From assembly GCA_019745075.1 (NCBI GenBank), contig JAIETR010000043.1:1-64000 (forward strand): a stretch of 64,000 bases of DNA. The letters run 5' to 3'. This DNA is from Qipengyuania sp. (GTDB lineage Bacteria; Pseudomonadota; Alphaproteobacteria; Sphingomonadales; Sphingomonadaceae). The first letter of the stretch is position 1, and each line of letters starts with the position of its first letter. The position numbers were made by a program, and so were the translations under genes. The notes beneath the pieces are model-generated. The model made no database searches. It had not been told where the DNA came from and was given only the letters and a program-made list of their open reading frames with translations. This document shows positions 43,475-63,128 of the stretch, one piece after another.

Positions 43475-44233
43475 ATGGCCCGCATGAGCCCCCGGCGCAA
43501 CATCGTGGTCCTGACCGGAGCGGGGGTATCCGCCGAAAGCGGCATCGACACTTTTCGCGGGGGAGGTGGGCTGTGGGAACAGCACCGGGTGGAGGATGTC
43601 GCCACGCCCGAGGCCTTCGCGCGCGATCCCGATCTGGTGCTGCGCTTCTACGACATGCGCCGCGCCGCGATCCAGACCAAACAGCCCAATGCGGCGCATG
43701 TCGCGCTGGCGAAGCTGGACCGCGAATGGCTTGGGGACTTGCTGATCGTGACCCAGAACGTCGACGACCTGCACGAACGCGCCGGGGCGAAGCGCGTGCT
43801 GCATATGCACGGCACGCACCTCAATGCCTGGTGCACCGCCTGCGACGTTCGCTCCCCGTGGCGCGACAGCCTGATTCGGCGACCGCCCTGTCCCCAATGC
43901 GGCGAGGCCGCGCTTCGCCCGGATGTGGTGTGGTTCGGCGAGATGCCTTACGAAATGGACCGCATCTACGCGGCGCTGCGAAACGCGGATTTGTTCGTTT
44001 CGATTGGCACCTCGGGGGCGGTATATCCCGCGGCGGCTTTCGTCCGCGACGCGCGCGAGCTGGGCGTGCGCACGCTCGAGCTCAATCTCGAGCGCAGCCA
44101 GGGTTCGGCCTGGTTCGACGAAAGTCGGCTCGGGCCCGCGGGCGAACTGGTGCCGGTCTGGGTCGAGGAGATGCTAGGGTCCAAACCCAATCACCGCGCG
44201 GATCGAGATCGCCCGTGGGAGGTCGCCGACTAG
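43475..44233 (+). CDS. cobB: NAD-dependent protein deacylase (sirtuin)
   Basis: Removes acyl groups from lysine with NAD+. The class III-like sirtuin has GAGVSAESGIDTFRG near 16-30, TQNVDDLHERAG, the catalytic His in MHGTHL, and a four-Cys zinc site (CTAC then CPQC). FVSIGTSGAVYPAA is the NAD-binding end. The final ~18 residues from GSKPNH onward, and the stop, come from the left arm of the 268-bp structured element. Start could also be the Met at 43484. Confidence 0.93.
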   Translation: MARMSPRRNIVVLTGAGVSAESGIDTFRGGGGLWEQHRVEDVATPEAFARDPDLVLRFYDMRRAAIQTKQPNAAHVALAKLDREWLGDLLIVTQNVDDLHERAGAKRVLHMHGTHLNAWCTACDVRSPWRDSLIRRPPCPQCGEAALRPDVVWFGEMPYEMDRIYAALRNADLFVSIGTSGAVYPAAAFVRDARELGVRTLELNLERSQGSAWFDESRLGPAGELVPVWVEEMLGSKPNHRADRDRPWEVAD

Positions 44234-44443
44234 GAGCGCAGCGCAGTCGCGTAGCTGAAGCTACGCGCCAGCAAGCGACGACGATCGGCGGCCTCCCACG
44301 GGCGACCGCTGCGCGGCGGGCGGATTTTGGCGCACGGCGGCGTCGCGCGTCGATCACGATGGATCACCATCGCTCCCTCCTTGCTCCTGGCCGTGCGCCA
44401 AAATCCGTCCGTCTCGACCGCGTGGTGATTGGGTTTGGACCCT
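44176..44443. repeat. Structured ~270-nt element, copy A (unrecognised family)
   Basis: A 268-bp element between the convergent cobB and ThiF/MoeB genes, overlapping both ends. Helices: outer 44176-44201 with 44418-44443 (26 pairs counting one G-U); second 44208-44228 with 44286-44306; inner CGCGTAGC-TGAA-GCTACGCG at 44248-44267; fourth 44321-44337 with 44391-44407; fifth CGATGG-ATCA-CCATCG at 44357-44372. Unpaired conserved segments include AGGAGCGCAGCGCAGT (44232-44247) and AGCAAGCGACGAC (44270-44282). GCGCAGC (44236-44242) can also pair with GCTGCGC (44308-44314), crossing helix 2. A copy with different stem sequence but equal pairing is at 62856-63128. Confidence 0.85.
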
Positions 44444-45215
44444 AAACGGCTGAGCTGCAGGCCCGGCAGGCGGGGTCCTTGGCGATGGCGAAGCTGCGCA
44501 GCGAGGGCGCGAGTCCGTCGAGCAAGTGAACGCGGCCCCATTGCGGTCCTTCAAGAGTGGTCAGGGGCTCGATCAAACACTTGATCGACTGCATCGCGGC
44601 CAGCGCCCCGACCCAGCCCGCCATCGCGCCGAGCATGCCATCCTCGGCGCAGCTGTCGCAGTCCTCGGCATCGAAAGCATCGCCGACGAAGCAGCGATAG
44701 CACGGCTCGCCGGCCAGATGGCCCCGGAACGCGCCGACCTGGCCCTGGAAGCGCCCTACCGCGGCGCTCAGCAACGGAATCCGCATCGCTACGCAAGCAT
44801 CTGAAATCGTCAAACGGGTGGCGAATGTGTCGGTTCCGTCGAGCGCCAGGTCGGCACCCGCGACCAGCGTTGACGCATTGTCGCGCGTCACCCGCGCATC
44901 GCTGATGGCGACCTCGATCGCGTCGTCGAAATTGGCCAGCCAGCGCCGCGCCGCCACGGCCTTGCCGTGGCCGATGTCCCGCGCGGTGTAGATGGTCTGG
45001 CGCTGGAGATTGGACAGCTCGACCACGCCGTCGTCGAGCAGAGTGAGCCGTCCGATCCCGGCGCCCGCGAGATATTGCAGCGCCGGGGCGCCGATCCCGC
45101 CCAGCCCGACCAGCATGAGATGCTTTTCGGCCAGCATCGCCTGGCCGGCGCCGCCGATTTCGGGAATCACGATGTGGCGCGCGAAACGCTCGAGCCGGGC
45201 TGAGGACAGGGTCAT
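44442..45215 (-). CDS. ThiF/MoeB/HesA family adenylyltransferase
   Basis: E1-like enzyme of 257 aa that adenylates the C-terminal Gly of a sulfur-carrier protein (MoaD or ThiS). The ATP site is VGLGGIGAPALQYLAGAGIG (near 36-55); zinc Cys pairs are CYRC and the C-terminal CRAC; a catalytic Cys is likely in DCDSCAEDG. MoeB is the best guess as mobA, moaA and fdhD are in the window, but none adjoins. The stop codon lies on the right edge of the structured element. Confidence 0.9.
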   Translation of the reverse strand: MTLSSARLERFARHIVIPEIGGAGQAMLAEKHLMLVGLGGIGAPALQYLAGAGIGRLTLLDDGVVELSNLQRQTIYTARDIGHGKAVAARRWLANFDDAIEVAISDARVTRDNASTLVAGADLALDGTDTFATRLTISDACVAMRIPLLSAAVGRFQGQVGAFRGHLAGEPCYRCFVGDAFDAEDCDSCAEDGMLGAMAGWVGALAAMQSIKCLIEPLTTLEGPQWGRVHLLDGLAPSLRSFAIAKDPACRACSSAV

Positions 45216-62843: not shown

Positions 62844-62855
62844 GCGCGCCGCGCT

Positions 62856-63128
62856 AGGGTCCAGATCCATAACTGGCAATGGGGCCGGGATCGCCTGGAG
62901 AGGCCCGCCGGCCAGGAGCGCAGCGCAGTCGCCTAGCTGAAGCTAGGCGCAAGCAAGCGACGACGTCCGGCGGGCCTCTCCAGGCGACTGCTGCGCAGCG
63001 GGCGGCTTTCGGCGCGGGGCGGCGTCGCTCGTCGGCCACGATGCGGCAGCATCGCTTGCCTCCTCGCTTCTTGCCCCGCGCCGAAATCCGCTCCGTCACG
63101 GCCGTTGCCAGTTATGGTTCTGGACCCT
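62856..63128. repeat. Structured ~270-nt element, copy B (unrecognised family)
   Basis: A 273-bp counterpart of 44176-44443, between divergent MFS and methyltransferase genes. Outer helix 62856-62882 with 63102-63128 (one mismatch, one G-U); second 62890-62911 with 62967-62988; inner CGCCTAGC-TGAA-GCTAGGCG at 62930-62949; fourth about 63004-63020 with 63073-63089; fifth CGATGC-GGCA-GCATCG at 63039-63054. Conserved with copy A: AGGAGCGCAGCGCAGT, the TGAA tetraloop, AGCAAGCGACGAC, and the crossing partner GCTGCGC (62990-62996). The stems differ in sequence but keep pairing. Confidence 0.85.

Follow-up and report, generated by a model that had tools for sequence, protein, structure and literature searches.

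The window analyzed here, the whole 64,000-nucleotide stretch of contig JAIETR010000043.1 from Qipengyuania sp., begins with the end of an rRNA operon (positions 1-929: the 3' part of 23S, 5S and a tRNA, identified by Rfam search) and contains two related elements, copy A (44175-44444) and copy B (62855-63128), neither assigned to a strand. The gene names Sir2 and MoeB/HesA were assigned by eye and are presumptive.

Organization of the two copies

Each element consists of two terminal inverted repeats (TIRs) enclosing a mini-hairpin and two hairpin arms, which are homologous and lie in inverted orientation. Copy A is bounded by a duplicated TA (44175-44176 and 44443-44444), while copy B has TA at its left end and TC at its right, where the TA was not kept. 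The left TIR of copy A, TAGGGTCCAAACCCAATCACCGCG, lies on the plus strand (44175-44198) and the right TIR on the minus strand (44419-44444).

The left arm of copy A (44207-44305) folds on the plus strand and comprises an outer stem (44207-44229 with 44285-44305), two G-A strands (44232-44247 and 44270-44283) and an inner hairpin (44248-44267). The right arm (44321-44407) folds on the minus strand, with an outer stem (44390-44407 with 44321-44338), G-A strands (44373-44388 and 44340-44356) and an inner hairpin (44357-44372); it was matched at 44300-44421 on that strand by R1, a covariance model of one arm plus mini-hairpin built from 30 sequences. Between the arms lies the mini-hairpin CCGCTGCGCGG (44306-44316, unstranded). 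In copy B the left arm (62889-62987, plus strand) has its outer stem at 62889-62911 with 62967-62987, G-A strands at 62914-62929 and 62952-62965 and inner hairpin at 62930-62949; the mini-hairpin CTGCTGCGCAG follows (62988-62998, unstranded), and the right arm (63003-63090, minus strand; R1 match 62982-63105 minus) has its outer stem at 63073-63090 with 63003-63020 and its inner hairpin at 63039-63054.

A first-pass annotation of the window had described two copies sharing helix order and conserved segments while their paired strands differ. The places, the order of helices and the segments were all recovered, and the paired strands differ most. The inner hairpin change was as described, CGCGTAGC/GCTACGCG versus CGCCTAGC/GCTAGGCG, and the paired change from CGATGG..CCATCG to CGATGC..GCATCG between copies A and B was confirmed. 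That annotation could name no known family, and Rfam gave none: neither copy matched when the window was searched at gathering scores, copy A had no match even at E up to 5, and the HEARO, intron and retron families were not among the matches of these searches.

Mobility, copies and distribution

Mobility of the element, also raised in the first-pass annotation, was borne out by near-identical copies and by empty sites. BLAST of the home genome revealed copies of A, 99% identical, at unrelated sites on C1 and C40; the further matches were the diverged copy B, a contig-edge fragment, and self-inverted and weak matches. Near-identical copies in general were 99-100% identical at unrelated sites. 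The flanks of copy A were matched in 40 of 41 same-genus genomes, and at the junction all 10 same-genus genomes examined showed both neighbour genes, a single TA and no insert. The empty site of G558, for example, reads CTA|AACGGCTGA, compared with CTA-GGGTCC...GGACCC-TAAACGGCTGA in the window, indicating that the insertion of copy A duplicated the TA. Among 120 distinct insertions TA was found near both ends in 68, near one end in 36 and near neither in 16, where TAG, TAA or TAT within a few bases of the end was accepted.

R1 gave 16 matches in the home genome at E<=1, 11 of them strong members (E<=6.7e-17) and the remaining five weak, partial or second-strand. A single DNA query matched 24 of 249 family genomes at E<=1e-10. 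With R1 at E<=1e-4, 48 of the 249 were matched (home genome included), leaving 201 without a match under these strict filters, and matches were found in 17 of 289 genomes drawn from the class (home genome included), with up to 12 copies. The four same-genus genomes of the family draw had no R1 match, and one genome of the genus draw (G567) had two partial arm matches.

In total 154 copies were catalogued, identical sequences entering the counts once. Of these, 122 had a TIR score of at least 18, and their lengths were 250-295 bp (110 copies), 160-200 bp (11) or 140 bp (one); the other 32 were left out of TIR counts, being weak-ended copies, fragments at contig edges, or the copies in G387 and G485 that lack TIRs. 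One-armed and shorter derivatives with intact TIRs exist, suggesting that two arms may not be needed for movement. A 163-bp one-armed derivative in the home genome (L163 463-626; G000:C18:51263-51425) has both TIRs and forms one long hairpin (-161 kcal/mol). Another home-genome locus (L275; G000:C61:12478-12744, 267 bp) combines a TIR of the G245 type with a diverged arm-like interior and is absent from the 16 R1 matches. In L270 (G007) and L277 (G160) the two TIRs directly adjoin as palindromes of 37 and 48 bp, perhaps remnants or minimal elements, and a 335-bp copy (L276 201-535; G149:C1:485618-485952) has an extra hairpin, GCCATGTCCCCC..GGGGGACAGTTTC, in an arm stem, possibly a nested insertion.

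Single arms lacking TIRs were found by pattern matching in G387 (six matches) and G485 (three). The seven examined (L203-L209) have near-constant loop strands, AGGAGCGAGGAGCGATGTGG..CCCATGAGCGACGAGCGACG, and differing stems, and six of the seven adjoin a gene 3' end.

Searches of plasmids and phages with the element or an arm returned nothing but short matches at E 0.2-0.8, and the one exact 21-mer sought in viral contigs was absent from them. TIR searches of plasmids yielded nothing useful (Cronobacter records at E 0.2 and one Sphingomonas plasmid locus). This last locus, L312 2500-2665 on the Sphingomonas parapaucimobilis plasmid NZ_CP155750.1, is a repeat lying between genes; its TIRs resemble those of L258, and by eye it has no arms.

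Terminal inverted repeats and IS5-family transposases

The TIRs are highly diverse and include TAGGGTCC, TAGAGCCAG, TAGAGCGTTTTC, TAGTGTGGTGCGCG, ATACCAAGG, TAGTACCC, TAGCCCGC and more. Two types could be linked to an autonomous insertion sequence (IS). The first 19 letters of the left TIR of copy A, TAGGGTCCAAACCCAATCA, are identical (19/19) to an IS5-family end in the related genome G125, where the element starting with this sequence carries two IS5 ORFs, both above the NF033580 cut-off; for this IS a single end was examined together with its ORFs. A pattern search of 12 genomes found one TIR pair, in G245, whose members lie 840 bp apart and enclose two IS5-family ORFs; the NF033580 cut-off of 110 bits was passed by the second ORF and narrowly missed by the first (106.3 bits), and PF13340 and PF01609 were above their own cut-offs. 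The ends of this IS match the TIRs of the G007 elements in 17 of 17 letters. We take the two-ORF group of the IS5 family to be IS427. For two other TIR types no such partner was found: the second home-genome TIR gave no IS-sized pair in a draft of 82 contigs, from which the IS could be missing, and none was seen for the G352 TIR.

Since the ends of the elements match IS5-family ends, the elements were most likely moved in trans by IS5 transposases that target TA. They show the TIRs, the TA target-site duplication and the lack of coding capacity of miniature inverted-repeat transposable elements (MITEs), and TIRs common to an autonomous IS were found for two TIR types and not for the two others.

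When crude TIR classes were placed on a tree of the arms, 18 changes of class were required (least possible 6; shuffled mean 43). The starred branches force only 4 and 3 changes for the two big classes, in a tree that leaves 63 of its 117 inner branches unresolved, and 25 of the 121 rows had no class. These results suggest that TIRs have been exchanged between elements.

Insertion sites

Of 99 gene 3' ends near elements, 49 stop at the terminal TA+G (48 TAG and one TAA), 29 before the element and 21 inside it. Thus 49 of the 70 genes that reach an element stop at the terminal TA+G, compared with one third expected by frame (p 4e-10, cases being treated as independent and genes taken from a crude GC-frame caller). 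The convergent gene beside copy A (44442-45215) takes its stop codon from the terminal TAG of the element (minus strand, 44444-44442). Because the element starts TA-G, insertion at the TA of a stop codon rebuilds TAG and does little harm. The same crude gene caller placed 53 elements between tandem, 29 between convergent and 19 between divergent genes, excluding 12 unclear cases.

Folding and covariation of the arms

Both copies fold far more stably than their dinucleotide shuffles (copy A -198.8 kcal/mol against a mean of -118.8, z -15.4; copy B -193.6 against -132.7, z -11.8). The 153 R1 matches fell in 96 loci, some of which overlap, and often lay on both strands of one element, indicating that the two arms are inverted homologues, each read inwards from its own TIR. 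Compensatory base-pair changes, as in structured noncoding RNA, are present in the arms. In 146 distinct arms from the home and other genomes, two-sided changes occurred in 32 of 32 modelled pairs (shuffled mean 28.6; 32 reached in 2 of 500 shuffles), and the covariation score was 0.767, compared with 0.167 in shuffles and 0.08-0.10 when partners were slid by 1 to 3 columns. Because the alignment had been fitted to the model, it favours the structure, although the margin is still very large. Pairing was kept in further copies too, in 94.8% of the 4569 cells of these arms.

The selection on folding put forward in the first-pass annotation is therefore supported for the inner helices, where compensatory change is far beyond controls, and not for the outermost helix. 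The latter is the TIR pair of a transposon with IS5-type ends, whose pairing is accounted for without selection on folding, and the premise that ordinary repeats drift without compensation fails there. In agreement with this, G-T pairs do not exceed A-C mismatches appreciably in TIR stems (114 against 96 in 122 elements), and the TIR stem seems to behave like double-stranded DNA, its helix being explained by TIR function.

In G352 one arm has been flipped: L192 137-230 is the reverse of L194 140-233 with 94.7% identity, indicating that the palindromes do rearrange. L192 lies at G352:C22:153241, and its arm is inverted relative to the other copies of that genome.

Tandem G-A pairs in the conserved strands

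The conserved segments, described at first as unpaired, are indeed common to both copies, but they fit an in-register run of tandem G-A pairs. In sphingomonads AGGAGCGAGGAGGGAG stands opposite TGACCGACGAGCGACG, and in L034 the register is G-T, (A-G, G-A), G-C, G-C, (A-G, G-A), G-C, (A-G, G-A), C-G, G-C, (A-G, G-A), G-C. When G-A was scored as a pair, a scheme picked after the motif had been seen, 136 of 138 distinct strand pairs scored above the mean of their own shuffles and 131 of 138 above the opposite strand. Between L034 and L036 one G-A became A-C, both sides changing in step. In several other Alphaproteobacteria an ordinary helix replaces the middle of the run, and the part that varies least is the outer AGGAG/CGACG. 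We infer that the conserved segments would form tandem G-A pairs, an arrangement open mainly to one of the two strands of each arm. A canonical kink-turn was considered for these strands and dropped, as its register did not fit by eye. The arm fold and its G-A-rich motif are conserved across Alphaproteobacteria under many different TIRs. The loop of the mini-hairpin is GNA or TNC in 50 of 94 primary copies.

Wobble pairs and the nature of the folding strand

In contrast to the TIR stems, the arm stems (205 arms) contained 192 G-T pairs and 33 A-C mismatches, both sets being counted on alignments that score all mismatches alike. With one representative per similarity cluster the G-T:A-C counts were 46:12 in arms and 55:53 in TIR stems (p 4e-4). 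Counted on its own folding strand, each of the two arms showed the bias (88:12 and 41:11). Since the excess of G-T over A-C is found in the arms on their own strands and not in the TIR stems, the arms seem to be selected to fold as single strands, whether of RNA or of single-stranded DNA (ssDNA). The excess is nearly all 5'-T/3'-G (146 against 31 C-A), the opposite orientation giving 40:28 (p 0.18), and such one-sidedness would not be predicted from simple RNA folding. 5'-T/3'-G is common at mid-stem columns 27-31 of both arms, and 5'-G/3'-T is rare there.

That the arms act at the RNA level has, in our estimate, a little under an even chance. The leaning towards RNA rests on the TIR-less arms of G387 and G485, which persist apart from any transposon end and, in six of the seven examined, beside a gene 3' end. 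These arms, and the shorter one-armed copies with intact TIRs, speak against action as ssDNA, a reading that is possible and rather doubtful, in which the replication fork or transposition would expose the hairpins, and the transposase or a host factor would bind them near each end. It would suit the symmetrical placement of the arms, each inward from its TIR, and the mobility of the family; moreover, the GNA and TNC loops of the mini-hairpin fit DNA triloops, of which the GNA type is stable, and tandem G-A pairs are stable and form in DNA too. What is left of the probability goes to neither or to something else.

One such alternative, which we regard as unlikely, is that the arms are a mutational by-product, template switching between strands keeping an imperfect palindrome without selection on folding. 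The TIR stems do remain palindromic without wobble bias, the L192 arm is inverted relative to L194, and the one-sided 5'-T/3'-G excess resembles a directional process; template switching, however, yields Watson-Crick complements and not conserved G-A strands, and the G-T:A-C ratio differs between arm and TIR stems of the same elements.

The strong fold and the covariation might also be read as those of a stand-alone structured noncoding RNA gene, the whole element being transcribed from one strand. An initial test, made on the primary arms only, pointed to one strand, and this reading was dropped once the second arm showed its bias on the opposite strand; with a TIR stem free of wobble bias, and unrelated neighbour genes in all three orientations given above, it is now very improbable. 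We consider it still more improbable that a RAYT (Y1) transposase moves the elements as REP/BIME-like repeats: the pair of inverted hairpins in each of them recalls REPINs, but among the family genomes 9 of the 48 with the element and 28 of the 201 others had Y1_Tnp (p 0.38), so that no association was found and RAYT mobilization was rejected, and TIRs with TA duplication and IS5 matches were found instead. Least credible of all is a coding element, proposed for the minus strand of copy A from an AGGAGG-like site ahead of a 46-codon ORF that copy A shares, uninterrupted, with its two near-identical copies, and rejected since the frame is not kept across the 32 copies examined: it stops after 2 codons in L032 and after 5 in L047, varies in length, and has no start anchor that could be found in L034.

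Proposed model

The element is thus probably mobile and MITE-like, with a folded module inside, and not a noncoding RNA gene in its own right. We think it likely that copies A and B come from one family of MITE-like, non-autonomous elements, mostly 250-295 bp long in full form, with IS5-type ends and arms selected for folding. An IS5-type transposase would act in trans on the TIRs to move the element, and the arms would be under selection to fold as single strands, each read inwards from its own end. The folding strand would most likely be RNA made by read-through from either side, because such read-through first meets a correctly oriented arm. As a guess, the arm RNA may serve there to protect the neighbouring transcript's 3' end or to process it.

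More tentatively, and with less than an even chance, we propose that a conserved RNA hairpin module with a tandem G-A run rides class-wide in exchanged transposon ends, that its two inverted copies provide one working arm whichever side transcription comes from, and that some hosts (G387 and G485) have kept TIR-less arms beside genes.

MITEs are usually regarded as passive leftovers of IS elements. A folded module kept class-wide while the TIRs differ makes selection on something beyond TIR-transposase binding seem likely. If the arms act as RNA, every insertion would furnish the end of a host gene with a structured element; if they act as ssDNA, they would be an unsuspected aid to IS5-type trans-mobilization. 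The arms were undescribed in the titles and abstract starts of the open-licence PubMed Central literature searched.

Comparison with known systems

The cuckoo RNAs of Rhizobiales are reportedly multi-copy hairpins with variable stems, a constant loop motif, CCUCCUCCC, and no TIRs. Going by this description, they resemble the present elements as multi-copy alphaproteobacterial hairpins that combine variable stems with a constant motif, and they would be set apart by that loop motif and the lack of TIRs.

REP, BIME and REPIN sequences are GTAG- and CGTC-tagged repeats, the CGTC type being common in Alphaproteobacteria (PMC3733652). They share with our elements the inverted hairpin pairs and the intergenic location, but the elements described here are far longer (arms of about 100 nt), have TIRs with TA duplication and show no RAYT association.

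The two-ORF IS5-family sequences have the same TIR letters (19/19 for copy A and 17/17 for the G007 elements) and the same TA target. Unlike them, the element has no transposase gene, and the IS of G245 (840 bp examined) shows no sign of arms.

There is likeness also to the bacterial MITEs derived from IS elements, among which RUP, NEMIS, ERIC and Nezha are named in PMC3733652. Common to both are TIRs of an IS family, a length of a few hundred bp, no conserved coding and copies beside genes. In contrast to these MITEs, the present elements have internal arms conserved class-wide under differing TIRs and two inverted copies of one module. This widely conserved arm module is what sets the element apart from MITEs that have the same tested features.
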